A DNA stretch of 23,837 nucleotides from a virus. The translations under genes were made by a program, and so were the position numbers. Below are positions 1,659 through 21,886 of the stretch, in pieces. The stretch's first letter is position 1. Each line of letters begins with the position of its first letter. The DNA lies in the IMG/VR virus record IMGVR_UViG_3300032308_002752, positions 1-23,837 of that record. One strand, written 5' to 3'. Under the pieces are notes generated by a model that worked only from the letters and a program-made list of their open reading frames with translations, was not told the DNA's origin and ran no database searches.

Positions 1659-2633
1659 CTAAAGCGCCAAGTACTGCACCACCGGCGTGCCTGATGCCGC
1701 CACGACCCAAATCGATCCCAGCACGTTGACAGGAACCGAGAGGGTCGTTCCTGCGGGGATCTTCAGACCGCTGCTTGCGCTGACGTTGGCATCAAAGCCT
1801 ATATAAACCGCGATTGAGGCGTCATCGTTGCGGATGAGCACCTGATTCGACGCATTGACATCCAAAACCGGCATGTTCACGCCGGTGATGGTGCCCGTGA
1901 TGTTGACGGCGTTGGTGGCTGCCTGAGCATCCAGCAACGTCGGGTGAAGCCGCCCAATCGTGCGATGAAACGCGATGATCGTGCCCGACCCCGCGCTGGT
2001 GATGTCAATGGTCGATCCGCCGGAGGTGGCGCGGAATCCGGTGGTGGTAGAGGATGCGTCATCCAGATAATATTTGGTATTTCCCGTGACGCCCGTGGGC
2101 AGTGAGCCGCCATAGACATAAAGCAACACTTCATCGTTGGCCGCCCAGCCCGGATCAAACGCCGTGGTGCACACGTTGGTAGACGAGTTGCAGGAACTGA
2201 ACGGAATACCGCCCAGATGATACACCGTCCCAGCTGTGACGCCGTCGCCTGTGGTGCCGACCAAAACGCGATCACCCAAAAACGACTCAACAATCGCGCT
2301 GCGGGTCACGGTGTCGTTGGTCGCCTCTGCGTTAAAGGTGATTTTGTTGGCTTGCACCAGCCGCGCCGGCGTGGTGCTGGTGGTCACTGCCCCATACCGC
2401 AACGCCCGCCCCCGGTCATTGATCAAGTCGTTAGGGGCTGCGGTTGAAATCGCAAACTGGTTGGCGTTAAACGTGCCATCCGGTTGAAAGATGTTGCCTA
2501 CCGCAGGCACTTTCACCGTCCCACCGCTGGTGGTGTTGGCCGACGTTTGCGTGGTCGCCATGGCGGCAAGCGGCATCGTCAGCAACAGCGCCGCCGAGAC
2601 CAGTATGTTTGCAAGTCGTTTGAGTATGTGCAT
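1659..2633 (-). CDS. Secretion-signal-bearing tail fibre or adhesin protein
   Basis: 324 residues, probably a distal tail fibre or receptor-binding protein, from its Gly/Ser/Thr-rich beta-structured composition and its position at the end of the tail genes. Residues 1-26 look like a Sec signal peptide: basic start (MHILKRLAN), hydrophobic core (ILVSAALLLTMPLA) and AMA cleavage motif at 24-26. The start is fixed by an AGGAGG nine bases before the ATG, so the signal peptide is not an artefact of a start chosen too far upstream. A module around residues 175-220 (SLPTGVTGNTKYYL ... TSAGSGTI) matches repeats in the next upstream protein. The C-terminal part (LIRNDDASIAVYIGFDANVS) resembles a small beta-sandwich head domain. 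It lies 12 bp after the 959-residue adhesin. Confidence 0.8.
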   Translation of the reverse strand: MHILKRLANILVSAALLLTMPLAAMATTQTSANTTSGGTVKVPAVGNIFQPDGTFNANQFAISTAAPNDLINDRGRALRYGAVTTSTTPARLVQANKITFNAEATNDTVTRSAIVESFLGDRVLVGTTGDGVTAGTVYHLGGIPFSSCNSSTNVCTTAFDPGWAANDEVLLYVYGGSLPTGVTGNTKYYLDDASSTTTGFRATSGGSTIDITSAGSGTIIAFHRTIGRLHPTLLDAQAATNAVNITGTITGVNMPVLDVNASNQVLIRNDDASIAVYIGFDANVSASSGLKIPAGTTLSVPVNVLGSIWVVAASGTPVVQYLAL

Positions 2634-2645
2634 GATGTGCGCCTC

Positions 2646-5525
2646 CTATTGCGCCAACTGATTCACTTTGAACGGGCCAAGATAATAAATTTGTTGAATT
2701 TCACGGTCTGTGAGCCAGCGGTCTTTAAAGAACCCCGCCGAATGGTAATAGCCTGGCGCACTGACCCGCGCCGAGGAGGCCATGTAAGTTTGAAAAACCG
2801 CACCCGGTTCATCAATGGATGTGTGCGCATTGCCGCGTCGGACGACTTGCGTCCCCGGCAACGACCCACACCCACGCGGATCGCCCCAGACGCAGATGAA
2901 CCCATCACAATCATTTTGAGTGGCGTAGAGATTGGGATCGTTGCCATACAGCGGGTTCAACCGCGCCCGCTGAACAAACAGTATGGTCCTGGCCCTGCCA
3001 ACATCGGCGGTGACGCCGTCGGTGGTCATGCCCGTGTAAGTCGAGGCCGTGCCATAAAAGAAATTCTTCCAAGGATACGCGTGCGCAAGATCGCTGGTTC
3101 CGATGTCTTTTGCAGGGCGACCAAACAAATTGACCGGATTGAAATTCTCGTTTGTGTCCTGACTGTAGCCATGAATGCCCATATTCACGGATGGCGCAAC
3201 GTGGTCAAAAGTTATCCCCTTTGTGCCAAACGTGCCGCTACCATTTTGTTTGGCCATCACAAAAATATCGGCGAGGTCAGATTTTGGCGGACTGACAAAA
3301 TCTTCGGTGTACCAGGCAAACAGCGTAAACGTCTGCGTCCCGTTGCCGTAGGTATTATTGGCCGTAAAGAAATTCGCCCGCCCCGTAGTGCTGGTGGTAT
3401 TGGGGAAGCGCACGCCCGGAATGCCTTGGTAATTATTTGTCCCTGTCCCCACAGTGTCCTGCGTCCACGACGGCGTTTGCGTTTCAAAGACCGCCTGATT
3501 TAAGACCAGATTCGCGTTGCCCTTTTTGCCGGGGATGGTATTGCCTTCCTGTGTCCCAATGGCATATTTGACTTTGAGCAAGTCGACAATGCGCTTGATT
3601 TCAGCCGTGGGGACTTCTGTTGCGGATGTGCCTGCAATAATCTCATAAGCATCAATTTTGCCGGGGACATGACCTTGCCCCGAGTTAAAGCCAAGCCAAG
3701 GGACTAATCCAGTGTCTACGGCTGATCCAAAATTTCCTTTAGCTTGGTTTGAATTTAAAATATCAATCCACTGGCCGTTTTTGCCAAACATATGCACTAT
3801 GTTTGCATAAGCGGGATTATTCATGTCGGTGGCGATCATATAAATCGCCACTTCGTCTTTATCAATTCGTGTGGTGATTTGATTAACGCCGCCTGCCGCA
3901 ATGTTTGCGCCCAACTCGTAAGCCGACGTTTGCCCATCATCAGGATAGAGCGTAAATTCACCTGTGCTGGTGGCACTAAAACGCGGGTGGGTACTGCTAG
4001 CATCCGAGACGTTGGCATTGGCCTGCGCGCTGGCAAGGCTGTCATGCAGCCTGAAAGTCGCCGTTACCGATGATGAAACCGATGCGTAGAGTTTTGTATT
4101 GACAGCCAGCGGTAATCCCGAATCTACGCGGGTGGGCATCACGGTGTCGGGGGGTGCCCAAGCTTGCAAAACTTCATTTTGAGGGTAATCAATCGTGTTA
4201 ATGCGGCTATTGTTAGCAATATCCACCCGCGCAGGCGTCACGACGCCGAAAAAGCCGCCCGGTCCCCCGTTTTTAACCGCCAACACGCTCACATGGTCAT
4301 TACTGCCATTGGGGGTATTGACATCGAGAGACGCATATTGATTCTGTGGTTGATCGGCCACACGACGGGTCGCGACAATGCCAAACTCACCGCTGCCTGC
4401 GCTGGTATACGTAATGACGTTGGTGTCATTGGTGGCATCCGCGCTTGTAGGGTGTAGGCTCAGGGTGCCTGATGTGACAGAGCGTGCGTAAGCCCCCGCT
4501 GTCAATGCGCTTTCGTTTGGGCTGGCCGGACTGGGAAGGTTGTTGCCAGAGGCGGCATAAAACTTAACAAAGTCACCTGTGTTAAATCCATGACTCGTTT
4601 TGGTGATGACGCCCGTACCCGTGTTAATATCCGTGTGCGCAATGATTTTTCGATACGGCGTCTTTCGTCGGTCATAATATGGGATTCTGGCCACGATGAT
4701 TTGATAAAAAATTCGATTCCCTGCGTAGAGCTGTCTTGTGCCTAAATTGCTTCCGCTAAAACCAAAAATCTTGCCATGGCGAGTATGAGAGCTTAAGTAA
4801 TTGTGTTTCACCATAGGGCCGGGGGCGCGAACAAACGTGCCTTTAGCGTCGCTTAGTAACTCAAATTGGTCGTTGATATTAGTCGCACTATTTGCGAGAT
4901 CGCAATCTGCTTTGTTAACAAGATCCGTCAATTTTGAAATGGTCGTGCCAGTGTAAATTCTAAAACTACCCGTTCCCGCCGTGGTGAAGTCGATTTTATT
5001 CACACCATACGCGGCATTGTTGCCAATCGGGACATCTTCGCCGGGCACCCCGCCCGGCATATCATCAGCGTCGGCATCCGTGGCATACGGAAAGATATCA
5101 ACACCGCCCCCAGAATTGTTGACGGCAAAATATGGCGTCCCTTGTACCAATGGCGCGGGCAGAACACTGCCACCGCCCACGGGTTCAAAATAAACTGGAG
5201 TCAGACCCCTGACACCAGTTCCGGCAATCGTGGGCCGAGTGTACTGAAAATCCAACCCTGTGTTGTTGATTTTATTGTTGGTGGTGTCAACGTCACTGGG
5301 GCCAAGGGTTGCCGTAAAATTGTGCGTCGTGTTGGCGTTGGAATCTGCGGCGTAGTGGGCAATCACGCTGCCCATCGTGTCAATGTCTGAATATGATCCG
5401 GTGTTTGTCAGCGCGTCGCCAAAATTCCAGAGTTCATCGCCCGACCCCATCGACGGGATGGCCGCCATGGCCAGCGAATTCACGCATAAAATCAGACATA
5501 AAAGAACAGAAAAAATCAGTCTCAT
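2646..5525 (-). CDS. Large secretion-signal-bearing tail fibre or adhesin
   Basis: 959 residues, likely a host-recognition fibre or lectin-like adhesin. Residues 1-21 form a clear signal peptide (MRLIFSVLLCLILCV, then AMA at 19-21). The N-terminal half contains at least three diverged copies of a beta module with the pattern LP/LxxGTxYxV ... TTAGTGSFRIY: near residues 125-195, 335-385 and 475-540. The C-terminal half contains FNSGQGHVPGKIDAYEIIAG and a section around 690-960 with aromatic- and Gly-rich strands that looks like a jelly-roll lectin or LamG-type fold; this is inference from composition. It ends with SAGFFKDRWLTDREIQQIYYLGPF, a pattern frequent at the end of LamG/concanavalin-like phage proteins. 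Its ATG lies 3 bp after the stop of the upstream gene. Confidence 0.8.
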   Translation of the reverse strand: MRLIFSVLLCLILCVNSLAMAAIPSMGSGDELWNFGDALTNTGSYSDIDTMGSVIAHYAADSNANTTHNFTATLGPSDVDTTNNKINNTGLDFQYTRPTIAGTGVRGLTPVYFEPVGGGSVLPAPLVQGTPYFAVNNSGGGVDIFPYATDADADDMPGGVPGEDVPIGNNAAYGVNKIDFTTAGTGSFRIYTGTTISKLTDLVNKADCDLANSATNINDQFELLSDAKGTFVRAPGPMVKHNYLSSHTRHGKIFGFSGSNLGTRQLYAGNRIFYQIIVARIPYYDRRKTPYRKIIAHTDINTGTGVITKTSHGFNTGDFVKFYAASGNNLPSPASPNESALTAGAYARSVTSGTLSLHPTSADATNDTNVITYTSAGSGEFGIVATRRVADQPQNQYASLDVNTPNGSNDHVSVLAVKNGGPGGFFGVVTPARVDIANNSRINTIDYPQNEVLQAWAPPDTVMPTRVDSGLPLAVNTKLYASVSSSVTATFRLHDSLASAQANANVSDASSTHPRFSATSTGEFTLYPDDGQTSAYELGANIAAGGVNQITTRIDKDEVAIYMIATDMNNPAYANIVHMFGKNGQWIDILNSNQAKGNFGSAVDTGLVPWLGFNSGQGHVPGKIDAYEIIAGTSATEVPTAEIKRIVDLLKVKYAIGTQEGNTIPGKKGNANLVLNQAVFETQTPSWTQDTVGTGTNNYQGIPGVRFPNTTSTTGRANFFTANNTYGNGTQTFTLFAWYTEDFVSPPKSDLADIFVMAKQNGSGTFGTKGITFDHVAPSVNMGIHGYSQDTNENFNPVNLFGRPAKDIGTSDLAHAYPWKNFFYGTASTYTGMTTDGVTADVGRARTILFVQRARLNPLYGNDPNLYATQNDCDGFICVWGDPRGCGSLPGTQVVRRGNAHTSIDEPGAVFQTYMASSARVSAPGYYHSAGFFKDRWLTDREIQQIYYLGPFKVNQLAQ

Positions 5526-5528
5526 GGG

Positions 5529-6608: not shown

Positions 6609-6982
6609 TAGGCCGCGCCCTCTTGCGTGTTGTCCAGAATCTCCAGAATGGCCGCCATGACCGGGGCCACCTCGGGCGGCAAGCTTTCTGCCATGGCCTC
6701 AATCTGGCGGGTGACATAGCCCACGTCGCCAAATTCCAGGCTACTGCGCAACGTGCCAATGGCGGGCATCAACACGGTTTTCAGTGCGTCCGGCAAGGGC
6801 AAAATCAACGCGGCAATGTGCGCCATGGCCTCGCCGGGTGAAAGTTTACTCAGGCGCACCAATTCATATCCATCTGGGGGGCTGCCCGGCCAATATTCAA
6901 ACCCGGCAGGCGCCGCCGAGGTTTCCATCACACCTAGCCGAATCACTTGGCTCGAATCACCAATTTTTCGAATAAAACCCAT
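6608..6982 (-). CDS. Small hypothetical tail-associated protein
   Basis: 124 residues from the start I prefer (MGFIRKIGDSSQV), whose ATG overlaps the stop of the upstream fibre gene by one base (TAATG), just as this gene's own stop overlaps the next start. A longer frame from 7072 exists but would run 90 bp into the upstream gene. The N-terminus (IGDSSQVIRLGVMETSAAPAGFEYWPG) looks like a short beta region; the remainder is helical, with LSPGEAMAHIAALILPLPDALKTVLMPAIG and EAMAESLPPEVAPVMAAILEIL. I do not recognise the family. Its position between two fibre genes with one-base overlaps on both sides suggests a fibre chaperone or a small fibre-associated protein, which is inference. Confidence 0.72.
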   Translation of the reverse strand: MGFIRKIGDSSQVIRLGVMETSAAPAGFEYWPGSPPDGYELVRLSKLSPGEAMAHIAALILPLPDALKTVLMPAIGTLRSSLEFGDVGYVTRQIEAMAESLPPEVAPVMAAILEILDNTQEGAA

Positions 6983-8106
6983 TAGCCGTACCATCCCGCC
7001 ACATGAATCTGAACCCTCGGATCCGCCGCCGTAGACTGATATTGCACCACTTGGCTGGCATCCGTGTCGCAATCAAACTCAAGGGTGGGGTAGCGCATAT
7101 CGCTGGTCCAGGCATAGACGCTCTTGCCGTTATGGCTGGCCCCCTTTCGACGCACCCGAACTTCTGCGCCGGTAGAGCCGCCCAGCACCCCCAGCCATAG
7201 TTTAGCCGTCCGACTAATCGGTGGCACAAACGCGGCTAGGCTCACGTCGTCAAAACTGGTTTGCGCTGCGCCGGCGGCGTCATCGCGGACCACGGTCGGC
7301 CCATTGCTGGCGTTGGCGCGTGGCAACGTCACGTCATGTTTAATATACGGGGCGAACGGCCACCCCTGAATCGTAAACGGCACCAAATCGCTTGACCCGT
7401 CATTGCGCACGGCAAACTTTGGAATCACGAAACTTTTGTCATAGCCACTAGGCAACGTGATGCCGCCCGCGGTGCGGCTGGTACTAAACACCGCACTGGT
7501 GGGGTTGACGCCCGTGCTATCGCCAATCACATGCACGTAATACCACGTATTTGAGGCTTCGGCCCCGCTGCCTGCCTCTCGTCCACCCGCGCCTGAACTG
7601 GCCAGGCTCACGGTGACGTCCCCGGATAAAATCATGTCAATCGCGCCGTCGTTGCTGGTGTAGCGCGTGCCACTGGCCAGCGTGACGGTGGAGGCGTTGG
7701 TGTAGGCCGGTGCGGTGGCATTCACTGGGGGGGTATAGGCCAATTGCCAGCGCGTGCCGGCGGCGGTGCCATTGGCGGCCATGGCGACAAACAGGCGATT
7801 GTTGGTGGTGTCAATGCACCGTTGCCCCACATACCACCCGGCCACCGTCAGCACGGGCGATCCCGCGTTGGTCAGCACGCCGTCGCCGTCTTTGTTAAGT
7901 TGCCCAATAATGTTCCAGGCGGCGTTGGTGCTGTTGCGCTGTTTTAAAAGTCCGTTGGTGGTGTCGTACCACAACATGCCCGCGACTTTAACCGTAGGCT
8001 CACTGGTTTTTGAGTTTTGAGACAAAATCGCCGCCAACGCGTCGTTAATATCCCCGCGCGCGGCGGGGAAACTCTGGTTGGCAATAGAATAATCGTGTTC
8101 GGACAT
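6982..8106 (-). CDS. Tail fibre protein
   Basis: 374 residues. The N-terminal 75 residues (DYSIANQSFPAARGDINDAL, then GMLWYDTTNGLLKQRNST, AAWNIIG) match the widespread phage tail-fibre N-terminal pattern that attaches trimeric fibres to the tail tip, with the usual spacing between the SIANQSFPAARGDIN element and the LWYDTT element. The rest is Gly/Ser/Thr-rich beta sequence. Residues about 85-120 (GWYVGQRCIDTTNNRLFVAM) resemble short beta-repeat units of fibre shafts, and the C-terminal 100 residues (LWLGVLGGSTGAEVRVRRKG) probably form a receptor-facing domain. AAGGA lies about 12 nt before the ATG, 36 bp after the J-like gene. No signal peptide. Confidence 0.88.
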   Translation of the reverse strand: MSEHDYSIANQSFPAARGDINDALAAILSQNSKTSEPTVKVAGMLWYDTTNGLLKQRNSTNAAWNIIGQLNKDGDGVLTNAGSPVLTVAGWYVGQRCIDTTNNRLFVAMAANGTAAGTRWQLAYTPPVNATAPAYTNASTVTLASGTRYTSNDGAIDMILSGDVTVSLASSGAGGREAGSGAEASNTWYYVHVIGDSTGVNPTSAVFSTSRTAGGITLPSGYDKSFVIPKFAVRNDGSSDLVPFTIQGWPFAPYIKHDVTLPRANASNGPTVVRDDAAGAAQTSFDDVSLAAFVPPISRTAKLWLGVLGGSTGAEVRVRRKGASHNGKSVYAWTSDMRYPTLEFDCDTDASQVVQYQSTAADPRVQIHVAGWYG

Positions 8107-8142: not shown

Positions 8143-11109
8143 TTATGGCATTTCTTCGCCGTTGCCGACGGCCACCCAGTTGACGGTTTTCGAGACTTGC
8201 GTGCCGCCGGCGTTGTACACCCGCACGTCAAAACTGGATCGGGTTTCACTGGCCAATGTCAGATAGTCCCCCGAGGCCGCGTTTTTAATCAGGGCCGTCA
8301 CCGTGGGCGTGGCCTGAAACGCACGCGAATAACTTACCGTTTGCGCCAGCGTGGCATGGCTGGTCACCGTGCCTGTGATGGCGCGGCGTTTCATCAACAC
8401 GGCCACACTCAAGGCATCAATGGCCACGTTGTCACTGGTGGCGGTCGTCGTTACGGCGGCTTTAAACTCAAACGCCCGCGCCGACACATCGGCAATCACA
8501 AACGGTTTCCACGCACTCCACACGGGCGTGCCTGACGGGTCGTCGTTGGTGGATCGAAACAGCAATTCAACTTTCGCACTAGAATCACTCAGCGTGTCAT
8601 CTAAATTACCCGTGGCACTGTCCCACAACCCGCTGGCGTCGTCCCAGTTGGATCCCAATATTTCATAGTCTCCATCCCATACGCCCTTGAGTCGGCATAA
8701 AAACACCGCGCCCAAATCGACATCGCCCGCGAAGGCATACTCCCCGCTGGTTTTGTAGCCGCTGGCATCATCCAGATTTCCCGTGGCATCGTCCCAGTTG
8801 CCCGTGGCGTCGTCCCAAATCGTGTCGCCATCCAGCCGCATTTCGCCAGCCGACACATTTAAATTGGTTTTCGTGCCTGAAAAACTTGGCGACTCGGTCA
8901 CGGTCTGAATCGTCACCCATTCGTCGCTGTCGGGCAAATCGAGGCTATAACTGGCCACCGTCTGGCTTTCCACGCCCGCGATGTTTCGGGCCTTGATCAT
9001 GTATGTGCCTTCGATGGCCCCCAACGTGACGGCCTGTTGTTTTCCATCCACCAGCAGATCAATACTGGTCGGATCATTCCACGCCGCGCCCGTCACGTTT
9101 TTACTGTGTCGAATGCGAAACTTGCCGCCGCTGTAAACTTCCGCCAGCCTGTCCCAACTGAGATTCACCAGGCCGTTGGCAAAATAGGCACTAAAGCCCG
9201 TGACATCCGGCGGGCGGGTCGTCTGGCTCAACAGTTCCACGGTCGTCACGGCGTAATCACTACCGATGCCCAGCGTGTTGATGCACCGCGCCCTGAATTC
9301 ATACGTGGCCACGGCCAAATCGTTCAATTCAATGTAAGGGTAGGGTGTGCGCCCCGCGTACGTCCACAACGGGTCACTGCCACTGGCGGGTTTGATGCGG
9401 TATTCCAGTTCATACTGGTCGATGAAACTGTTCTCCGGCGGCGTCCATTCCAGGCGAATCTGGTTGATCACTTCCCCCGCGCCCGTGGTAATAAACTCTT
9501 GCGTCACCTCGCCAAACGTGGGCGGGCCAATGTCCAGGGGGTTATCAAAGCCGCTGTCTGTGTCGCCCAAATCGGCTAAATCCGTGTCGCCCAGCGCGTA
9601 CACGTCGGCGTCGTATTCTTCCAGACTCAGCCCAATGGTGGCCGCCGGCGTAAACTTCCACCCCATCACCCGATACAGCGCATTGGTGAACCCAATCTCG
9701 GGATAGTTCACCGTGATCACATCGCCGATTTCCAGTTGCATCGCCACCAGTTGGCAATTCAACTGCACGGTTTTACTTAATCGGCTGCTTTTAAGGGCAA
9801 TCTGCGCCACACGATGCGCCTGCGACTTGCCCACAATAAACGGGTACTGGCCTTTGAATACCAGCTTTTCCCCACCGTCGGCGGCCAGATAATCGGCATT
9901 TTGATAAATCGCCAAATCCGTCTGCCAACTGTTGGATCCATTAATGTACTCGGCTTCAATCGCGTTGAATCGGTCTTTTTTGCCCTTGAACCCAATGTTC
10001 ACGCCCGCCAAAATGTTCGACTTGTCCAGTGTCAACACCGAGGCACTGGGTTTAAAAATCAGGGGTTTGTAGAGGCCATTGCTGCGCACCAGCGTGGCAT
10101 TAAAGCCCGTCACCAGTTCTTCGACGTTGTCTTTGATTTTTTGCCCCGTCAACAGCACGCCATCGCACACAAACCGTTTCATGGTCTGGCCGTTGTCGGT
10201 GATTTGGGCGTCGCAGTAGTTGGCCTCGTCAATGCCGGCATCATCATCAATCAGGCTGGCATCCAGGGCGCGCCCGTAGCGGGCATTGGTCAAATAATCA
10301 CGCACCGCCAGCACGGGGTTATTGCTGTACACCGTCTGGCCGCTTCGGGGGTCATAGAGTTTCTTGCCACGTACCACCGCCGTCACGGTGGGGAAGCCCT
10401 TGAACGCCTCCAGCTTTTTGAAACTGCCCGGCGTCAAATCGCGCTTGAATTCAAAGGCAATGTAGGCCAGCCCGTTAAACGTCCATTGCTCTGTCAGAAC
10501 GTTGCGTGTCAGGGGGATCAACTGTGAGACGGCGGTCTGGTTGTCCGTGCCCAGGCGCGTCCAGTAGCGCACCAGGCCATCAAATTTGCTCGCCGTGACG
10601 GGTTCATTGTCGATCAGAATTTCTTCAATCGCGTCGATCGGCCCTTCGCAGAGGATATAAATCATATACAAATATGAATTTTCACCATTGCCCGACACTC
10701 GGGTGGTGATGGGCACGCGAATGCCGCCGACTTTTGAGCGGCCATACACCACGGGCACATCCTGAACGGTGCCCATCGTGTTGTCGTTAATGCCAGATCC
10801 ACGGGCCGCCAAGGAGGAGGAATCTGGCCCTTTCTTTTTGCCGAGGAGTGATGCCCCCGCACTCACCGCCGCGCCCACCGCGCTTAAAATCAGGGCGTTG
10901 CCAATGGCCACCCCAATACCAAACGACGTTGCCGCCAAACCTGCCGCCGCCGTCGCCCCCGCCCCACCAATCCCAATGGCTGAGCCAATGCCAATCAACA
11001 GGCTAATTGGGTCAGCATGTGCATTTTGTGGACACAGCCACGCCATGGCCCCAGTGGTGGCCACGGCCAGCGTCAGTGCCAACGCCCACTTTTTTGCATT
11101 TCGCCGCAT
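8143..11109 (-). CDS. J-like tail tip (host specificity) protein with predicted signal peptide
   Basis: 988 residues, the central tail-tip/baseplate protein of lambda-like phages. After the N-terminus comes a Gly/Ala-rich hydrophobic stretch (about 34-90), then VQDVPVVYGRSKVGG (about 115-129), a hallmark of J-family proteins, then the tip domain with PIDAIEEILIDNEPV. Two fibronectin type III-like domains follow (about 525-625, with LEWTPPENSFIDQYELEYRI; about 630-715, with GLVNLSWDRL). Residues about 763-838 hold repeated WDDATGN motifs, and a C-terminal beta domain closes the protein. Unusually, residues 1-32 look like a Sec signal peptide: MRRNAKK, core WALALTLAVATTGAMA, with AMA at 21-23 or AHA at 30-32 as cleavage site. 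The Shine-Dalgarno sequence is weak (CGGGAT next to the ATG). It lies 31 bp after the integrase, in the same direction, where a tail gene would normally precede it. Confidence 0.92.
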   Translation of the reverse strand: MRRNAKKWALALTLAVATTGAMAWLCPQNAHADPISLLIGIGSAIGIGGAGATAAAGLAATSFGIGVAIGNALILSAVGAAVSAGASLLGKKKGPDSSSLAARGSGINDNTMGTVQDVPVVYGRSKVGGIRVPITTRVSGNGENSYLYMIYILCEGPIDAIEEILIDNEPVTASKFDGLVRYWTRLGTDNQTAVSQLIPLTRNVLTEQWTFNGLAYIAFEFKRDLTPGSFKKLEAFKGFPTVTAVVRGKKLYDPRSGQTVYSNNPVLAVRDYLTNARYGRALDASLIDDDAGIDEANYCDAQITDNGQTMKRFVCDGVLLTGQKIKDNVEELVTGFNATLVRSNGLYKPLIFKPSASVLTLDKSNILAGVNIGFKGKKDRFNAIEAEYINGSNSWQTDLAIYQNADYLAADGGEKLVFKGQYPFIVGKSQAHRVAQIALKSSRLSKTVQLNCQLVAMQLEIGDVITVNYPEIGFTNALYRVMGWKFTPAATIGLSLEEYDADVYALGDTDLADLGDTDSGFDNPLDIGPPTFGEVTQEFITTGAGEVINQIRLEWTPPENSFIDQYELEYRIKPASGSDPLWTYAGRTPYPYIELNDLAVATYEFRARCINTLGIGSDYAVTTVELLSQTTRPPDVTGFSAYFANGLVNLSWDRLAEVYSGGKFRIRHSKNVTGAAWNDPTSIDLLVDGKQQAVTLGAIEGTYMIKARNIAGVESQTVASYSLDLPDSDEWVTIQTVTESPSFSGTKTNLNVSAGEMRLDGDTIWDDATGNWDDATGNLDDASGYKTSGEYAFAGDVDLGAVFLCRLKGVWDGDYEILGSNWDDASGLWDSATGNLDDTLSDSSAKVELLFRSTNDDPSGTPVWSAWKPFVIADVSARAFEFKAAVTTTATSDNVAIDALSVAVLMKRRAITGTVTSHATLAQTVSYSRAFQATPTVTALIKNAASGDYLTLASETRSSFDVRVYNAGGTQVSKTVNWVAVGNGEEMP
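8596..8820 (-). repeat. Coding repeat: WDDATGN motifs in the tail tip protein
   Basis: Two clusters in the J-like gene encode short tandem Trp-Asp-Asp units. At 8764-8820 the protein reads WDDATGNWDDATGNLDDASG, and at 8596-8650 a diverged version includes WDDASGLWDSATGNLDD. The DNA keeps near-identical blocks (CCCGTGGC then TCGTCCCA), showing recent duplication or recombination. The two clusters are separated by about 110 bp of unique beta sequence. Confidence 0.85.
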
Positions 11110-12249: not shown

Positions 12250-12273
12250 TTTTGTCCAAATTTTGTCCAACGG
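12250..12273. repeat. attP arm-type repeat, copy 1 (integrase side)
   Basis: 24 bp made of two tandem 11-bp units, TTTTGTCCAAA and TTTTGTCCAAC, followed by GG. An identical copy stands at 12496-12519 in the same orientation. Tandem 10-11 bp direct repeats flanking a core are the known form of integrase arm-binding sites; the assignment is inference from this layout. Confidence 0.8.
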
Positions 12274-12349
12274 GTTATTGATTTCAGGAGAAGTTTAGCA
12301 GAGATAACAAAATACGGCAAATGGGCAAAAACGCACTCTGTGAGGCTTT

Positions 12350-12377
12350 AACCCTTATCAATAGGTGGTGGGCGGTA
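12350..12377. repeat. 28-bp perfect inverted repeat, left arm
   Basis: This arm begins AACCCTTATC and ends GGGCGGTA. It is the exact reverse complement of 12437-12464, with a 59-bp spacer. It therefore copies, inverted, the last part of the tRNA-Val acceptor strand, the CCA and 16 bp of trailer found in the right arm. Confidence 0.95.
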
Positions 12378-12448
12378 TGAATATAATTTAACTGGTCGCC
12401 ACATTGACATTGTGGGGGTCACGTGTTCGAGTCACGTACCGCCCACCA
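12370..12448 (+). tRNA. Incomplete tRNA-Val(GAC): 3' half intact, D-arm lost (attP core)
   Basis: From 12399 the sequence folds as a tRNA: anticodon stem CCACA/TGTGG with 7-nt loop TTGACAT giving anticodon GAC (valine), variable region GGGTC, T-arm ACGTG/CACGT with loop TTCGAGT, acceptor strand ACCGCCC, discriminator A, and encoded CCA at 12446-12448. The 5' acceptor strand GGGCGGT (12370-12376) pairs in all seven positions. The 22 bases between it and the anticodon stem are AT-rich and cannot form a normal D-arm with its conserved A14, G18-G19 and A21. The best reading is an attP core that copies the host tRNA 3' part, with the 5' strand supplied by the inverted repeat. A working D-arm-less tRNA is a remote alternative. 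Identity as tRNA-Val is strong; function as a tRNA is doubtful. Confidence 0.7.
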
Positions 12449-12464
12449 CCTATTGATAAGGGTT
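12437..12464. repeat. 28-bp perfect inverted repeat, right arm
   Basis: Contains TACCGCCC, the CCA end of the tRNA-Val fragment and the trailer CCTATTGATAAGGGTT. It pairs perfectly with 12350-12377. The host identity segment of attB probably lies within this arm plus the anticodon and T-arms to its left. Confidence 0.95.
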
Positions 12465-12495
12465 TCAGGGTTTGATTGTTTACTATTCCTGCTAT

Positions 12496-12519
12496 TTTTG
12501 TCCAAATTTTGTCCAACGG
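12496..12519. repeat. attP arm-type repeat, copy 2
   Basis: 24 bp identical to 12250-12273 and in the same orientation (TTTTGTCCAAA, TTTTGTCCAAC, GG). It ends 7 bp before the stop codon of the NlpC/P60-like gene, so it is squeezed between that gene and the tRNA-derived core. Confidence 0.8.
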
Positions 12520-12526: not shown

Positions 12527-12946
12527 TTACCCCACCCGCAGAATGACCCCCTCAGCAAACGGCAGCCGCCGCGCCTTGTGATACATCACGCCATGGCCTG
12601 GCGCGTTGACGGCGCACAAGTCCCCCAGCAACACATGACAACACGACCGCCCACGCTCCACCATCACAAACACATCCCCAATCGCGCGATAGTTCGCATC
12701 CGGTACCACCACCGCGCCGCGTTCTTTCAACCCCTCAATAAACGGATGCCGCTCATGAAACTCAATCGCCCCTTCCTCCGTACGATAGGTAAATTCTGGT
12801 AGGTCCAACGGCGTGTCGATCATCGCGTCAATGCAACCTAAAGCGAATGTCGCGCAATCGTGTAACCCCCACATAAAGGGATTACCCAGTTGCGCCGTAA
12901 TGTAGCGCGTCAGCAGGATTTCGGCATCGGGGCGTCGGCGGGGCAT
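12527..12946 (-). CDS. NlpC/P60-like tail tip peptidase (DUF6950-type)
   Basis: 139 residues. WGLHDCATFALG (C31 as the candidate nucleophile) and SCCHVLLG (H104 as the candidate catalytic His) match the cysteine-peptidase fold of DUF6950/NlpC-P60 proteins encoded just before the tail-tip gene in many siphophages, equivalent in place to lambda K. Such proteins are thought to trim or cross peptidoglycan during DNA entry or to help assemble the tip. The final section (PGHGVMYHKARRLP) keeps a family-like GV/GI plus aromatic pattern. The ATG at 12946 lies inside the preceding 69-residue gene, a 37-bp overlap in another frame. The next expected gene, J, is separated from it by attP and the integrase. 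Confidence 0.85.
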   Translation of the reverse strand: MPRRRPDAEILLTRYITAQLGNPFMWGLHDCATFALGCIDAMIDTPLDLPEFTYRTEEGAIEFHERHPFIEGLKERGAVVVPDANYRAIGDVFVMVERGRSCCHVLLGDLCAVNAPGHGVMYHKARRLPFAEGVILRVG

Positions 12947-13997: not shown

Positions 13998-14626
13998 CAG
14001 TTCCAAACCTCCAGCATGTCGAATTCAATTTTGGATAAATACTGCCCATCCACCGAGGCATGTTCAATGCGATGGGCGTTTTCGGCCAATGCCACCGTGA
14101 ACGGCACGTTCGACACCACCAACGCCGTGTTGTCGGGCACGTCGGCCACCAGCGCGGGGCGGAAACTCAGGTTACACGCCCCCGCTCCACTGGAAACGGC
14201 ATCTGAAATGGCCATATACACCTTGGCGTGGTTGGCAAACTTGAACACGTCCCCAGCCTTCAAGACGGTTTGGCTAAAACTCCAGCCGTCGGTGGCCAGT
14301 TCCATCGCGCCCGCCGCCGTCAGGCCATTGGCCAAGGGCGTGCCGGAGACCGTGCCCCCGGGCGTGTTGAACAAGGTGGAATTGATGGTAAACGTGCTAA
14401 AAATGCCCTCTTGGGCCACCAGAAACGCATACAATTTGCGCCAATCGGCCTGTTTTAAAAATCGTGATCGCAATGACAGCCGCCACCGATGCCCCGTGGG
14501 GCGAATGGCCTGGCGTTGGTAGGCCATGGCGTTGTTGGCCTTGGCGTTGAAATCGCTGGTGACGCCCTCAAATTCAAAGGGATACCCCGCGCCGCCCGGA
14601 TTGCTGAAGGGGAAAGTACCTGCCAT
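13997..14626 (-). CDS. Distal tail / minor tail protein
   Basis: 209 residues directly after the tape measure gene, where lambda-like phages encode the protein that joins tube to tip. The N-terminus (FPFSNPGGAGYPFEFEGVTS) leads into a region like other minor tail proteins (RWRLSLRSRFLKQADWRKLY, then FLVAQEGIFSTF), followed by a domain about residues 110-175 with LKAGDVFKFANHAKVYMAI and LSFRPALVADVPDN, a pattern common to tail-associated small beta-barrels. The last part (YLSKIEFDMLEVW) is a typical ending for these proteins. The ATG lies in a GCCATGGC octamer, one codon after the tape measure stop. Function is inferred from position and pattern. Confidence 0.78.
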   Translation of the reverse strand: MAGTFPFSNPGGAGYPFEFEGVTSDFNAKANNAMAYQRQAIRPTGHRWRLSLRSRFLKQADWRKLYAFLVAQEGIFSTFTINSTLFNTPGGTVSGTPLANGLTAAGAMELATDGWSFSQTVLKAGDVFKFANHAKVYMAISDAVSSGAGACNLSFRPALVADVPDNTALVVSNVPFTVALAENAHRIEHASVDGQYLSKIEFDMLEVWN

Positions 14627-14629
14627 GGC

Positions 14630-17020
14630 TTATCGACTCCTGTCCATCACGCCCGACCGCCCGCGTTTGTTGTCGGCATACTGCACATGCCCCAGCGCGA
14701 TGTTGCCAATCATGCTGGATTGCTGCTTCAGTTGCGCCGCAAAGCTGCCCACGTCGGTGGCCTGCACGTTAAACGTCTGATACACCGTGACTTGTTGCCC
14801 GCCGCCGCCGGAGGCCGCCATGCCGCCGAACGCGACATCATTGGGAATCACCCGCCCGGACTGCCCCATCATCATGATTTCCGGCCCGCGTTCGCCCACG
14901 ATGAACGGTTGGTTGGCAGGCGTCAGGCCACCGTCGGCGAAGCCTGGCAAAAACGATTTCACCACCCCGCCCAGCAAATTGCCAAAAAATCCCGATCCCC
15001 CGCCGCCCTGACTCACGCCCCCGCCGGGTGTCAAACTGGCCCCCGTCCATTTGGCCAGCCCCTTGCCGATGTTGTCCACAATCGGCTGAATCACCAACAT
15101 GCGCAACGCCATGCGTTCAATGTCTTCGATAATACTCAGGGCCATGTTTTTAAAACTGAATTCGCCTTTTAACGTGGCGTTGACAAAGGCGTCTTCAAAA
15201 CTTTTACCGTAGTTGGCCACGGCGTTTTGCAGCGAATTCAACCCCGATTGCTGCGCGTTAAACACATCCACCGCGCCCTGTTTGGCTTTCAACAACGTGG
15301 CGGCATCCAGCGGACTGCCGGGCACGGCGGCCAGCCCATCCAGCCGGCTGATTTCATCGCGCAGTTTTTCAAACTCGGTGCGCGTGCTTTCCACGACGGT
15401 TTTGGCGTCGTTGAGTTGATCGTCCAGTTTTTTCTGCGCCTCATCCGCCAGCCGATTCACTTCATCCGCCATGGCACTGAAGTCGTCTTTCACCTTCTCG
15501 AAACCATCCAGCATGGGCTGCATCCATTTGTCCGCCGCCTTGCCAATGAGATCATCCAGATTCAGCGCGTTGCCAAACTCGTTCTGATATTTGGCCACGG
15601 CCCGGTTGTAGGTGTCCAGGGTGATAAGGTGTTTGCTTAAAAGTTTGTCGGCGTCGGCAATGCTGTCGCGATACACTTCCAGCGGCTTGCGCACGCTGTC
15701 GGTCAGGCTTTCGGCCTGGCTCTTGAGTCGATCCAGTTCGCGCTCGGCGTCGCTTTTGCCCTTTTTCTTCTTTTTGTCTTTATCGCCGCCCCCGGCCATG
15801 CGGGCCAACGCCCCACCGCCGACCTTGGCCATTTGGGCTTTGGGGGCATTGGCCCAAGCGTTTGTCATTTTTAATGAGTAGGATTCTTTTGCGACTAGAG
15901 CGGTTTCTTTTTTGAGTTTGTCCAGGTAGCTTATCGCTTCATTGAGGCCGCCTGTGGGTATTTTGGGAATCAACCCTAACGACAATGGCTGACTGAAAAT
16001 ATTGATAAATTGAGCCCCGGCACTTGCCGTAGACAACAATTGTCCCGAAAGCGTGGCAAGCCAAGACGTGACCGAGTTCGTAAACCCCCAAAAGTATTCC
16101 GTGGCCGCCCGCGTCACATAACTCAACCCTCTGGCAAATTCATAGGCGACGCTGTTTGTATCATTTAATTCTTTTGCCAGACCGCCTGATTCCTGAGCGA
16201 GGGCATTTATCGTTTGTGCCAGTAAGTCACTGGCCCCGGTAGCCTGATCCAGTGCCCCCACCATCATCATCAGGTTGTTTTGGGCGGCCTTAGTGGTATT
16301 GGCCACGGTCAACTTGACAGTTTTGAACTGCTCGTTCACCGAGTCAGCACTATCAATGATGGCTTGGGCCAGTTTTTTACTGGACAGTTCGCCGTCTTTC
16401 ACCATCAATTTAAGTTGCCCGGTGGTCGTTCCAAATTGCTTCGCCACCTCGACGGCCAAGGCGGGGATGTTCTCCAAAATACTGTTGAATTCTTCAGCGT
16501 ACACGCGACCAGTGGACATGGCTTGGGCCAATTGCACCGTTCCCGCCGCCATGTTGGCGGGCAATGTGCCGGATATTTTGCCCAGTTTGCCCACCGTATC
16601 GACAATTTTCAGGGCTTCGTCATTGGTAATTTTTAAATCCGCCCGCGACATGCTCATGCGCTGGAACAGTTCGACACTATCACTGAGGGCCTGCCCTGAG
16701 GCATTGGAGGACGACACCAATTTGCCCAAAACGGCGTTATAATCCCCCGTGGCCGCCGTGGCCAGGCGCACGCGATTCGTCAGGCTGGTGTATTCGTCGT
16801 TGATTTGCACCAACGCCTGAAGCCCACCGCCAATGGCTGCCGCGCCCAACGCCACGGCAATGCCGCCAATGGCCCCGGCGGCCAGTTTTGCCGCGCCGGA
16901 CACACTGCTCATTTGTTTGGCAATGCTGGTCAGTTTGGCGTTGGCGTCGTTCATGCCCTTGGTGAACTGACTCGTTTCCGCCGTCAGGCTCATGACCAGT
17001 TTGGAGAGCATTTTCGACAT
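14630..17020 (-). CDS. Tail tape measure protein
   Basis: 796 residues, the rod that sets tail length and guides assembly. Residues about 20-45 begin a helical region (NDANAKLTSIAKQMSSVSG), followed by a Gly/Ala-rich hydrophobic segment (about 40-70, GAIGGIAVALGAAAIGGG) and the tape-measure N-terminal pattern (EYTSLTNRVRLATAATGDYN, about 74-93; SVELFQRMSMSRADLKITND). The middle part, about 420-600, is Lys/Asp/Glu-rich coiled coil (KDKKKKKGKSDAERELDRL). The C-terminus has PGFADGGLTPANQPFIVGER and GPEIMMMGQSGRVIPN, very typical of tape measures of this class. At roughly 0.15 nm per residue it implies a tail of about 120 nm, which is inference. It follows the frameshifted assembly chaperone genes, and AGGA lies before the ATG. 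Confidence 0.95.
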   Translation of the reverse strand: MSKMLSKLVMSLTAETSQFTKGMNDANAKLTSIAKQMSSVSGAAKLAAGAIGGIAVALGAAAIGGGLQALVQINDEYTSLTNRVRLATAATGDYNAVLGKLVSSSNASGQALSDSVELFQRMSMSRADLKITNDEALKIVDTVGKLGKISGTLPANMAAGTVQLAQAMSTGRVYAEEFNSILENIPALAVEVAKQFGTTTGQLKLMVKDGELSSKKLAQAIIDSADSVNEQFKTVKLTVANTTKAAQNNLMMMVGALDQATGASDLLAQTINALAQESGGLAKELNDTNSVAYEFARGLSYVTRAATEYFWGFTNSVTSWLATLSGQLLSTASAGAQFINIFSQPLSLGLIPKIPTGGLNEAISYLDKLKKETALVAKESYSLKMTNAWANAPKAQMAKVGGGALARMAGGGDKDKKKKKGKSDAERELDRLKSQAESLTDSVRKPLEVYRDSIADADKLLSKHLITLDTYNRAVAKYQNEFGNALNLDDLIGKAADKWMQPMLDGFEKVKDDFSAMADEVNRLADEAQKKLDDQLNDAKTVVESTRTEFEKLRDEISRLDGLAAVPGSPLDAATLLKAKQGAVDVFNAQQSGLNSLQNAVANYGKSFEDAFVNATLKGEFSFKNMALSIIEDIERMALRMLVIQPIVDNIGKGLAKWTGASLTPGGGVSQGGGGSGFFGNLLGGVVKSFLPGFADGGLTPANQPFIVGERGPEIMMMGQSGRVIPNDVAFGGMAASGGGGQQVTVYQTFNVQATDVGSFAAQLKQQSSMIGNIALGHVQYADNKRGRSGVMDRSR

Positions 17021-17035
17021 AAGATCGCGTCCTAC

Positions 17036-17610: not shown

Positions 17611-17666
17611 GGCTGTGATCTCCTATACGGGGTGCGAATAAAAATAAACGGGTAATTTTTCTCTTT

Positions 17667-17701: not shown

Positions 17702-17709
17702 GCTGTTAA

Positions 17710-18144
17710 TTAACTCGTATGGCGCGTGATGTCTGGGGCGTTGGTGCCGTCATCGCCGGGGACGATGCTGATTTTGGTCATCGCCAAATCGCCCACCGTG
17801 CCATCAATCGGGTTGTATCCGGTAATCAAACCATAACCGCGATACTCGGGATTCCCCGGCCCGATGGCCGTGGTTTTGTTGGCCCGTACTTCAAACGCAA
17901 ACACCGTGCCCGCGCTGTGCAAGCCCCAGAGGGTTTCATCCAGGCCGTTGTCCACAAAGTCTTGAGTTAAATCTAAATCCATACTGAAGTTTTTCAGGCC
18001 CGCAATGTTGCCCTTGGTCGTCATGCCCATCACGGTGCTGTCTTGCACGTCGGTTTCAAAACTCAGCGAAACGGTTTTCACGCGGTTGCTGATGTCCGTG
18101 CCGTTGATTTCCACTTTGGCGTCGGTATATACAAATTTTGCCAT
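17710..18144 (-). CDS. Tail tube protein paralogue 3
   Basis: 144 residues. The pattern VEINGTDISNRVKTVSLSF, then GMTTKGNIAGLKNF and LDLTQDFVDNGLDETLW, is that of the phage tail tube family, whose rings form the tube around the tape measure. It aligns along its length with the two upstream genes: each has an N-terminal strand pair, a TKxxIAGL or TKAHMAGL loop and an acidic C-terminal region (GDLAMTKISIVPGDDGTNAP here). AGGAGGA precedes the ATG, the strongest ribosome binding site of the three, and the ATG lies in a GCCATGGC octamer. Its place directly before the chaperone gene, the strong site and the compact single-domain size make it the best candidate for the major tail tube subunit. Confidence 0.85.
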   Translation of the reverse strand: MAKFVYTDAKVEINGTDISNRVKTVSLSFETDVQDSTVMGMTTKGNIAGLKNFSMDLDLTQDFVDNGLDETLWGLHSAGTVFAFEVRANKTTAIGPGNPEYRGYGLITGYNPIDGTVGDLAMTKISIVPGDDGTNAPDITRHTS

Positions 18145-18159
18145 GGCGATGGAGTCCTC

Positions 18160-18570
18160 CTATAAGCCTAAAACATTGGACGCTTGTACAAAGTCGATAC
18201 TGGTTTCCGCGATTTCGCCCACGCTGGCCGTCAACGCGGGGTAATTTTGCAAATACACGGTGGCGGCATAAGCCGGGTTGTCTGCGCTTGGCAGTGTGCT
18301 GAACGGGGTGACGATCAGGTTTTCGGGCACGCGCCCGTCAAAAATGGGCCACAAAATGGCATCCAGGGCGGCAGCGTCAAAATCTTGTTTCAATGTCAGG
18401 CTGATTTGCGTCTCGCCCAGCCCGGCCATGTGGGCTTTGGTATTTTGGCCGTGGGTGGTGGCATCGACGGCGTCTTTTTGGGATTGCACCGTCACGCTTT
18501 TCACCCAGTCCGTCAGGTTCGATCCCGCCAGGGTGACTTTGCAATCCGTGTAGACAATTTTGGAGGCCAT
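18160..18570 (-). CDS. Tail tube protein paralogue 2
   Basis: 136 residues. VTLAGSNLTDWVKSVTVQSQ, then TTHGQNTKAHMAGLGETQIS and LTLKQDFDAAALDAILW, correspond position by position to the downstream paralogue (VEINGTDISNRVKTVSLSF, MTTKGNIAGL, LTQDFVDNGLDETLW). The C-terminal region (PAYAATVYLQNYPALTASVG, EIAETSIDFVQAS) also keeps the order of strands. The two proteins are clearly homologous but well diverged, so the duplication is not recent. The stop of the upstream paralogue lies 4 bp before this ATG, which again sits in GCCATGGC. It may form a specialised ring at one end of the tube, or be an alternative tube subunit. Confidence 0.83.
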   Translation of the reverse strand: MASKIVYTDCKVTLAGSNLTDWVKSVTVQSQKDAVDATTHGQNTKAHMAGLGETQISLTLKQDFDAAALDAILWPIFDGRVPENLIVTPFSTLPSADNPAYAATVYLQNYPALTASVGEIAETSIDFVQASNVLGL

Positions 18571-18574
18571 GGCC

Positions 18575-19288
18575 CTATCGCACCCCCGCCAACAGTACGT
18601 AGCCCAACACGGGCGTCGATCCGCCCACGGTGTGCGACGCGCGGTAATAGGTGTTGGTGATGGGGCCGTCGGCGGTGAGATATTGCACGCCCGTTGCCGT
18701 GGCCTGAGTAAACGTCAGGCGCGTGGTTTCCGATCCTGAAAACGCATTGGTCGCATCACTTTTCAGCAACACATCCAGCGTGGGACTCGTGCCCGAGGCA
18801 CTGATCACATGCAACGCGCCGTAAAGTTTTTGGCCAGCCGCCACGGCGGGCAACTGAAACACCGTGCCATTGCCGGTGGCGTTCACAGTTTTATACGCCA
18901 TCACCAGCCCGCGAATCAGGGGGTTTTGGCTGGCACATTGGGCACTATATTTAGACGCATCGCCCACCGTGTCGCCGAATGGGCTATAGGCGTTCAAGAG
19001 GGCTTTCTGGAAATAGGCCAGATCGCCCTCGGTGGTACTGTTAAAAAAGCTTACCATCACGTCGCTGGCCAATTTGGCAAACAGCGCATCCGTGTGGGCA
19101 ATGCTGGTATAGCCTTCCAGATTAAGGCCTGCGCCGTACAATCCGGCGATGTTGCTTTTGGTTGATTGTCCCAGGCACGTCACGTCCACCGGATCCACGT
19201 CATCATTGAAGCCGACCGTGTGGGTGAATCGGGTTAAATCAAGTTCATCCAGCAACACGCGCTGGGCTTCGAGTACAAACTGGGCCAT
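18575..19288 (-). CDS. Tail tube protein paralogue 1 with extra C-terminal domain
   Basis: 237 residues. The first part matches the other two tail tube genes: RVLLDELDLTRFTHTVGFND, then VTCLGQSTKSNIAGLYGAGL, with the same TKSNIAGL loop. From about residue 145 there is an extra beta-rich domain (LPAVAAGQKLYGALHVISAS, GTSPTLDVLLKSD, FSGSETTRLTFTQATA, YYRASHTVGGSTPVLGYVLL) not found in the other two. Extra immunoglobulin- or lectin-like domains on tail tube proteins usually project from the tail surface. A hairpin at 19293-19308 lies just upstream and partly covers the GGAA ribosome binding site. It is the first gene of the tail-tube trio, after the tail terminator. Confidence 0.8.
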   Translation of the reverse strand: MAQFVLEAQRVLLDELDLTRFTHTVGFNDDVDPVDVTCLGQSTKSNIAGLYGAGLNLEGYTSIAHTDALFAKLASDVMVSFFNSTTEGDLAYFQKALLNAYSPFGDTVGDASKYSAQCASQNPLIRGLVMAYKTVNATGNGTVFQLPAVAAGQKLYGALHVISASGTSPTLDVLLKSDATNAFSGSETTRLTFTQATATGVQYLTADGPITNTYYRASHTVGGSTPVLGYVLLAGVR

Positions 19289-19292
19289 AGTT

Positions 19293-19308
19293 CCAGCGTA
19301 GCCGCTGG
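19293..19308 (-). promoter_or_regulatory. Hairpin overlapping the ribosome binding site of tail tube paralogue 1
   Basis: CCAGCG and CGCTGG pair perfectly around a 4-nt loop. The stem's last bases run into the GGAAC that precedes the ATG at 19288, so folding could hide the ribosome binding site. This could limit translation of the first tube gene relative to the two others. Functional role is inference. Confidence 0.4.
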
Positions 19309-19377
19309 CATTTTAGAGATTTTCCGCCCGCGCCAAGGCCGTCAGGCCGCCATGCGGCGGGCGTGTAAATGATCTTT

Positions 19378-19896: not shown

Positions 19897-19913
19897 AAAC
19901 CCAGTGTAGACCC

Positions 19914-20195: not shown

Positions 20196-20198
20196 GGC

Positions 20199-20603: not shown

Positions 20604-20606
20604 CCG

Positions 20607-20933
20607 CTAAACCTCGACAATTTGCGCGATCACTTCCAGCCACTGGCGGCGTTCGATTTCATCGACGGCCAGCACGTCATAGTCTTTCCCTTCGCAGCGC
20701 AGTTGCGTGGTGGCGGGGGCAATGTCGGTGCGCCATCGCAGATAAAACCGGGCATCGGCTTCGGCCACCCGCATGGCGTTGACAAAACTTTCCTGCCCGC
20801 CCATCGGCTTGCGCTTGGCACTCACCGTGGCGGTGGTTGTCCAGGTTTCCACCGCCTCGCCCACCGCGTCGCGCGTGGTGCTCTTGTGGCGAATCTCCAC
20901 CCGCCGATCCAGTTCACCCGCCGACAGTTTCAT
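20607..20933 (-). CDS. Head closure protein (SPP1 gp16/HK97 head-tail adaptor family)
   Basis: 108 residues. GELDRRVEIRHKSTTRDAVG and EAVETWTTTATVSAKRKPMG are the standard start of the head-tail joining family (Phage_H_T_join), followed by EADARFYLRWRTDIAPATTQ, where the family has FRIRYR-I, and DYDVLAVDEIERRQWLEVIA at the end. Length is normal. Such proteins form a ring beneath the connector that closes the filled head and presents a surface for the tail. It overlaps the upstream 103-residue gene by 20 bp and ends 3 bp before the gp10-like gene. Confidence 0.93.
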   Translation of the reverse strand: MKLSAGELDRRVEIRHKSTTRDAVGEAVETWTTTATVSAKRKPMGGQESFVNAMRVAEADARFYLRWRTDIAPATTQLRCEGKDYDVLAVDEIERRQWLEVIAQIVEV

Positions 20934-21225
20934 GAGGGGCCTGTATCTCTGGATTATCGACTAAGCCAGATTCAAACTCTTTACGACCGTCAAGGTAAAA
21001 ATGGGTCGCAAAAACGCCTGTTTTAGTTATGGCGCATCGTTTCAGGCAAGGCTCCTTGATTTTTGCGCCCAATAAACTGAGCACCATCAAATTTTTGCCC
21101 GCCTTAAAAGTTCGGGTATTGTTTTGGGGGTCTACTTCAATCATCTGAGTCATTAGATTCAGGGCAATATCATCCCCTGCAAACTCGTGGGTTTCTCCGT
21201 CAATATCAATCGTGATTTTAATCAT
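20914..21225 (-). CDS. Hypothetical protein in the neck gene cluster
   Basis: 103 residues, not recognised. The N-terminus (MIKITIDIDGETHEFAGDDI) is a beta hairpin-like strand pair with alternating charges; helices follow (ALNLMTQMIEVDPQN), then a beta segment (LMVLSLLGAKIKEPCLKRCA) with cysteines at about 60 and 64. GAGAGG precedes the ATG and overlaps the upstream stop codon region, and the 3' end overlaps the head closure gene by 20 bp, so the gene is well integrated into the operon. Its position between the signal-peptide protein and head closure suggests a small head-tail joining accessory protein, which is only inference. Confidence 0.75.
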   Translation of the reverse strand: MIKITIDIDGETHEFAGDDIALNLMTQMIEVDPQNNTRTFKAGKNLMVLSLLGAKIKEPCLKRCAITKTGVFATHFYLDGRKEFESGLVDNPEIQAPHETVGG

Positions 21226-21235
21226 AAAAGCCTCT

Positions 21236-21886
21236 CTATCCCGTCACAGAAAGCGTGACAGTAACGCTCAGAATGTCGCCAGACGTCACCGCCCGCGAGC
21301 CGCCCGAGAACGTCACCGCGTTGTACAGCGTGCCCGTGGTGCCAGACTTTGTACTGCTGGTGGTGACAAAATAACCATCGACGGTGGCCGAGCCGTTGAC
21401 GTTGAACACGGCCTTGCTGGCACTGTTGGTGGCACTGCCACCGGAGGCCGCCGCCAACGTCAAGGTTTGGCGAGTGCTTTCGCTGTAAGCGGTAATTTCG
21501 CTCCATCCGGCATGGCTGGCCATGGTGTCGCCCGCCGCCACGGTGCCGGTGCCTTTGAGGCCTACAGACCACGCCGCCGTGTAGCCACTGGCGCGGAATG
21601 TGTTATCCAACAAAGCATTCAGGCCCGTTGTGACGACCAGGTTGTGGCTGGTGTCTTCCCATTTTAAATTCCCTTCAGCATCGCGACATTCGGTATGCCA
21701 GACCGACGTGACAAAAGGGGTAGAGGTCGCCATAACACTTTTGGCCACACTGGCCTGACCCAAATCACGGGCCGCTGCTTGCTTTTGGCGTAAGGGCCAG
21801 TGGGCCGCCTCCACGGGAATAAACCCGTTGGTGGCCATGGCGGCAATCATCAGGGCGGGTAAAAATGCTTTTGAAAACTTACGCAT
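21236..21886 (-). CDS. Phage structural protein with added signal peptide
   Basis: 216 residues. Residues 1-27 look like a Sec signal peptide (MRKFSKAF, core LPALMIAAMATNGFI, cleavage near VEA). From residue 52 (MATSTPFVTSVWHTECRDAE, then GNLKWEDTSHNLVVTTGLNA) the protein matches a type of small phage structural protein I have seen in many tailed phages, with AAWSVGLKGTGTVAAGDTMA, SHAGWSEITAYSESTRQTLT and a C-terminal RAVTSGDILSVTVTLSV. Those relatives usually begin near M52. Here GGAGGA eight bases before M1 favours the long form, and no ribosome binding site is visible before M52. It lies between the gp6-type connector and the neck genes. The role of the mature part is unknown; a head-decoration or surface-exposed beta domain is possible. 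Confidence 0.82.
   Translation of the reverse strand: MRKFSKAFLPALMIAAMATNGFIPVEAAHWPLRQKQAAARDLGQASVAKSVMATSTPFVTSVWHTECRDAEGNLKWEDTSHNLVVTTGLNALLDNTFRASGYTAAWSVGLKGTGTVAAGDTMASHAGWSEITAYSESTRQTLTLAAASGGSATNSASKAVFNVNGSATVDGYFVTTSSTKSGTTGTLYNAVTFSGGSRAVTSGDILSVTVTLSVTG

Follow-up and report, generated by a model that had tools for sequence, protein, structure and literature searches.

Tails of tailed phages are taken to be built in the cytoplasm without export machinery. Why, then, do tail proteins of the virus analyzed here appear to begin with Sec signal peptides? The window, by which we mean the whole 23.8-kb stretch of DNA, carries a siphovirus module of neck and tail genes, encoded on the minus strand, together with an integrase and, at one end, an M15 peptidase. 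A first-pass annotation had assigned Sec signal peptides to four virion-type proteins: a J-like protein (start 11109), two fibers or adhesins (starts 5525 and 2633), and a 216-residue neck-region protein (start 21886). At these starts the four translations open as it described, and strong ribosome binding sites do precede 2633 (AGGAGG) and 21886 (GGAGG). No clear ribosome site is found at 11109 or 5525.

We scored all 30 window proteins using position weights derived from a set of 35 known E. coli signal peptides, combined with core hydrophobicity and n-region charge. On its own training set, the scorer recovers 34 of the 35 known cleavage sites, and the known peptides score 11.9-23.6. The four N-termini were scored as follows (a slash marks the predicted cut).

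11014..11109, minus strand: predicted Sec signal peptide of the J-like protein, residues 1-32, MRRNAKKWALALTLAVATTGAMAWLCPQNAHA/DPIS, cleavage AHA/DPIS; score 18.1, 0/300 shuffles as high; aligns with the signal peptide of the relative L004
5463..5525, minus strand: predicted Sec signal peptide of a 959-aa fiber-like protein, MRLIFSVLLCLILCVNSLAMA/AIPS, cleavage AMA/AIPS; score 16.1, 0/300 shuffles
2556..2633, minus strand: predicted Sec signal peptide of a 324-aa fiber-like protein, MHILKRLANILVSAALLLTMPLAAMA/TTQT, cleavage AMA/TTQT; score 14.6, 0/300 shuffles; AGGAGG ahead of the start
21806..21886, minus strand: weaker signal-like N-terminus of the 216-aa protein, VEA/AHWP; score 10.1, 9/300 shuffles as high; absent in the relatives examined

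The highest score elsewhere among the window proteins is 8.8, and genes 8106 and 6608 lack a signal, in agreement with the earlier view that the trait is selective. Scores of 14 or above occur in 11 of 1405 same-strand ORFs from related phage loci, compared with three of the 30 window proteins (P about 0.002). Based on the scores, the shuffles, and this comparison, we consider the signals on J, 5525, and 2633 solid and that on 21886 doubtful; three of the four proposed signals are thus retained. J, 5525, and 2633 all combine a basic n-region, an uncharged hydrophobic core, and small residues at -3 and -1, as expected for Sec export and cleavage by signal peptidase I. In 21886, a long polar stretch lies ahead of VEA/A. 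Lipoprotein (signal peptidase II) and Tat signals were rejected, as inspection of the four N-termini by eye revealed neither a lipobox with Cys at +1 nor an SRRxFLK motif.

We compared J to tail proteins of known function and structure.

8143..11109, minus strand: J-like central tail-tip hub protein, 988 aa, matching phrog_31 (central tail fiber J), Phage-tail_3, and, by profile and fold, T5 pb3 and lambda gpJ
10831..11013, minus strand: hydrophobic gpI-like plug or penetration segment with basic flank, about J residues 33-93, supported by N-terminal family profile, hydrophobicity, and charge

The phrog_31 match has an E value of 5e-81. A profile of 36 J sequences finds the T5 baseplate hub pb3 (E 2e-58) and lambda gpJ (E 6e-24), and a Foldseek search with an AlphaFold2 model of J (mean pLDDT 77, with the N-terminal ~97 residues not confident at pLDDT <50) retrieves the hubs of T5, lambda, T1, JBD30, Chi, and RcGTA with E values of about 1e-26 to 1e-35. 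J thus has hub domains that match solved tail tips, as in a gpJ/pb3-type central hub. The N-terminal J family profile alone matches residues 116-210 of lambda gpI (E 5.8e-6), and a tail-assembly protein in the F2-pyocin entry 25vf was also matched (E 2e-4). In the J sequence, hydrophobic helices precede the gpI-matching plug, as in gpI-type proteins. The gpI match and the hub matches together place a gpI-type hydrophobic helix and plug directly behind the signal and identify J as a fusion between a plug/membrane segment of the lambda gpI type and a hub of the gpJ/pb3 type. A muralytic domain was searched for in the window J and gave no match. A short repeat, WDDATGNWDDATGNLDD and NWDDASGLWDSATGNLDD, lies in the C-terminal half at residues of about 770-840 and is kept as FD..TG in relatives.

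According to published work, gpI and megatron N-termini are tube plugs with a proposed role in membrane insertion (PMC11101478, PMC10721106, PMC7296036, PMC10276861); in lambda and RcGTA, segments of this type seal the tube, and their entry into the membrane during infection has been proposed (PMC11101478, PMC10721106, PMC7296036). Lambda gpI and gpJ correspond to the N-terminal part and the remainder of J, respectively, but J is one fused chain in which a Sec signal peptide takes the place of the N-terminal domain of gpI. T5 pb3 is the best profile and fold match of the J hub; its plug, however, is an insertion within the hub (PMC10721106), whereas that of J is N-terminal, behind the signal. 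The iris/penetration domain of the RcGTA and roseophage R4C megatrons likewise has hydrophobic helices at its N-terminus; they seal the tube, and a role in piercing the outer membrane has been proposed for them (PMC7296036, PMC10276861), yet the available passages on these proteins mention no cleavable signal, and the wording "signal peptide" is absent from the main text on RcGTA.

We analyzed the N-termini of homologues. The nearest relative of the window J, L004 (35% identity), has the junction MTSCLRAFLLAALLLVLLPLPAHA/EPIS, compared with NAHA/DPIS in the window. Judged by AxA followed by [DE]P[VI], 29 of 162 J homologues carry a signal, along with two variant forms, and genome searches revealed three further cases (L319, L324, and L328); the genome of L284 likewise encodes a J with signal. 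Two viral groups share the feature, with AKA/DPV in the group of L144 and AAA/DPV in that of L156, and it is also present in prophages of Variovorax (four strains), Rubrivivax pictus, two Burkholderiaceae, and Nitrosospira multiformis Nl7. AxA is found directly ahead of the conserved [DE]P[VI] in distant J relatives from environmental viruses and prophages. Ala occupies both -3 and -1 in 15 of 15 distinct true leaders with a hydrophobic core before [DE]P[VI] or [DE]P[VIF] and in 0 of 13 coreless leaders (P 2e-7 by Fisher's test, with one spurious match entered as a counterexample). In L004, L144, and L156, there is no ATG from the signal to the hydrophobic domain, a conservation that supports the long, signal-bearing form of J and rules out a start-codon artefact for these three. 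Most J relatives have no signal; it was found at none of 31 loci in an independent sample and in no cultured phage, the nearest isolates being free of it.

In other phages with a J signal, none of 266 ORFs for neighboring structural proteins carries one. We rejected the idea that the four window proteins form one system, because J-signal phages elsewhere have no other signal-bearing structural gene and the 21886 signal is not common to its relatives. The J signal is an evolved feature that recurs; the fiber signals were found only in the window, and the 21886 signal is weak and missing in relatives. A domesticated particle, which had been offered as one explanation for exported virion proteins, is unsupported as a general reason, given that many environmental viral contigs carry the J signal and that purifying selection on it is strong.

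A FastTree tree built from 148 J cores places signal-bearing J proteins in three separate clades, which require at least five state changes, although the deep branches are long and the split between gains and losses is unsure. Nitrosospira J copies that are near each other on the tree nevertheless differ: L257 starts with MPPAFIAAIP, whereas in L259, from the same strain, DPVT is preceded by a signal. In the Nitrosospira locus L328, MRLALLALLLLPWPVYA is fused straight ahead of the MPPA start used by signal-less kin. A stop codon lies just upstream of the signal-less Nitrosospira copies, indicating that the signal is truly absent there and ruling out a start-codon artefact for them. These sequences suggest that the signal was added just ahead of the start used by signal-less kin, and that such gains were repeated at the same junction. 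Many Nitrosospira J copies (L257, L259, L330-L332, and L336) have open frames of only ~350-440 residues, suggesting that these prophages have decayed or that J occurs in short forms.

In two close groups, the dN/dS of the signal codons is 0.025 and 0.039, compared with 0.060 and 0.096 for the J body and 0.12 and 0.20 for the plug; dS within the signal is 0.78 and 0.14. The J signal is under strong purifying selection. The low ratio cannot be attributed to overlap with the upstream gene, which extends over only a few codons. An integrase or attP as the source of the signal was likewise rejected, as other members have no integrase beside J.

Behind the J cut site, an uncharged hydrophobic gpI-like block of 37-58 residues is followed by the basic flank. 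In 16 of 16 signal-bearing J proteins for which the charge rule could be scored (16 of 24 rows; in the other eight, a charged residue breaks the block), this flank carries more positive charge than the mature N-terminus does. Fourteen of 15 signal-bearing J representatives have one clear span. The window J has two candidates, and its 58-residue block could span the membrane twice, which would put the hub outside. A general rule of N-out anchoring for all J proteins is unsupported, as signal-less J proteins have no consistent charge bias.

The reading we favor, if tentatively, is that a real, cleavable Sec signal has been added to J, that the N-terminus is exported, and that the hub remains anchored on the cytoplasmic side, nucleating tails on the inner membrane. 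The computed basis of this model comprises the signal pattern, its exact placement at a domain junction, its recurrence, the purifying selection acting on it, and the identity of the domain that follows. Sec use, cleavage, topology, and membrane assembly are what we infer for J. The signal would send only the N-terminus through SecYEG, signal peptidase I would cut at AxA/[DE]P[VI], and transfer would stop at the hydrophobic plug segment and the basic residues flanking it. The positive-inside rule, applied to the flank charges, would place the new N-terminus in the periplasm and leave the ~900-residue hub in the cytoplasm, anchored to the inner membrane, from where J would nucleate tail assembly and preset the plug for later membrane penetration. 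Such a topology would remove the paradox of an exported tail protein. With a plug segment and basic flank right behind the signal, full export of the hub is not predicted by sequence, and among the fates that had been proposed for the four proteins, being anchored or processed during assembly fits J best; the four do not represent a single phenomenon. It is conceivable, but less likely than this model, that in several separate long-tailed phage lineages the tail-tip initiator is Sec-inserted and trimmed by host signal peptidase I, with the tail begun on the membrane and the cut end becoming the virion's membrane-piercing plug.

The leader could instead be an extra membrane-active helix of the penetration domain, kept in the tail lumen and inserted at infection, with no Sec export in the producing cell and any cutting delayed until a new cell is infected. 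It does precede a domain with a presumed role in membrane insertion during infection, and signal-less J relatives carry other basic amphipathic leaders, such as MGFFKNFVKALS. However, every true hydrophobic-core leader combines AxA at -3/-1 with a basic n-region, a SecA/signal peptidase I pattern that penetration does not need, and we regard this explanation as unlikely. Full export of J, with two spans or none, would make it a periplasmic or surface receptor-blocking exclusion factor or a free adhesin; the virion J would then need a second, signal-less form. The high score of the J signal, the length of the window's hydrophobic block, the presence of signals and absence of membrane segments in two neighboring fibers, and an integrase adjoining J and the fibers, so that lysogen expression is possible, are all consistent with this scenario. 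Basic residues right behind the block nevertheless oppose translocation of the hub, and the signal-free structural neighbors of J in other phages also argue against full export, which appears improbable.

Two forms of J could also coexist: a long, signal-bearing one destined for the envelope, and a short one, initiated internally, that enters the virion. Internal ATGs in the window (M22), L328 (MPPA), L284, and L322 would allow for this, as would the lack of a clear ribosome site at the window J start, but L004, L144, and L156 offer no ATG between signal and plug, leaving the idea quite improbable. We are similarly skeptical that the signals are tolerated accidents or wrong starts without a role, with fast folding and assembly keeping J in the cytoplasm. 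That most relatives do without a signal, and that the 21886 signal is weak and not conserved, would fit such a neutral passenger. The signal codons, however, show the lowest dN/dS of the J gene at a dS of up to 0.78, and the signal was apparently gained repeatedly at the same junction. We consider the J signal a real, selected feature of one protein family, for which anchoring of the hub would be a plausible mechanism.

The other N-termini call for separate treatment.

2646..5525, minus strand: 959-aa fiber-like protein, no convincing relatives
1659..2633, minus strand: 324-aa fiber-like protein, no relatives found
21236..21886, minus strand: 216-aa protein of phrog_8123, between connector genes

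Searches of viral_contigs, phages, and PDB sequences returned no convincing relatives of 5525 or 2633; 5525 produced only weak local matches, at 9% coverage, to cyanophage baseplate proteins. Their designation as adhesins is thus not established. No clear later membrane span is found in either protein, and a signal without a stop-transfer segment predicts full export: 5525 and 2633 would probably be envelope or secreted adhesins, a conclusion separate from and weaker than the J model; a role as exclusion factors is also conceivable for these two fibers. For 21886, the sole family match is phrog_8123, a family with no assigned function, and its structural model gave no confident fold match, so that its description as a neck-region protein is not established either. 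The family is large in viruses (at least 590 confirmed stretches), and none of the 54 N-termini read, which are variable, carries a signal.

Searches of an open-access library turned up no paper that describes a signal peptide on J, gpI, or the tail tip. The pneumococcal prophage protein PblB is, like J, a phage tail protein with a predicted signal peptide, and its export as an adhesin has been proposed (PMC4508584). It differs in its Gram-positive host and in being a different tail protein; its signal is predicted only, and the passages on it do not cover conservation. Signal-peptide endolysins, such as the fOg44 lysin and those of J5a-clade phages, also place a phage protein on the host Sec route (PMC8878798), but they are lysis enzymes rather than virion parts, unlike the window J with its lack of a muralytic match. 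If our model is correct, a repeatedly gained and selected Sec signal before the plug would link the maturation of the tail tip to SecYEG and signal peptidase I, making the phage dependent on an inhibitable host protease. It would also provide a direct handle on how the hydrophobic helices of the plug are kept until assembly and on how they later breach a membrane.

Two further genes define the surroundings of J.

12527..12946, minus strand: DUF6950 tail gene; in relatives it lies directly upstream of J, with the same order in CRP-406 and L004
11141..12235, minus strand: tyrosine integrase between the DUF6950 gene and J (Phage_integrase, 5e-31)

Beside the integrase, two copies of a 24-bp direct repeat (TTTTGTCCAAATTTTGTCCAACGG, at 12250 and 12496) enclose a perfect 28-bp inverted repeat with a 59-nt tRNA-like middle. 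This segment (window 12250-12519) is probably an attP; it lies within the tail operon, with the DUF6950 gene on one side and J on the other, and lysogeny would leave J and the fibers at the integrase end. ARAGORN detected no tRNA in the window, and an Rfam match to mir-3817 at 12343-12471 was rejected, being far below the gathering score and reflecting the long hairpin only. At 17710-19288, the window holds three tandem major-tail-protein-like genes, two of which were compared and are 29% identical over 119 residues. Interspersed with its tail genes, L004 has sugar genes (1277-3560, 6740-7828, and 14306-16535), which encode a NeuB protein (sialic/nonulosonic acid synthase family), a Polysacc_synt_2 dehydratase, a GNAT acetyltransferase, and an amidase. 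In the Geminisphaera prophage L225 (13296-15030), two proteins downstream of J have strong signal-like N-termini with scores of 16.6 and 15.1 and are perhaps additional exported fibers.
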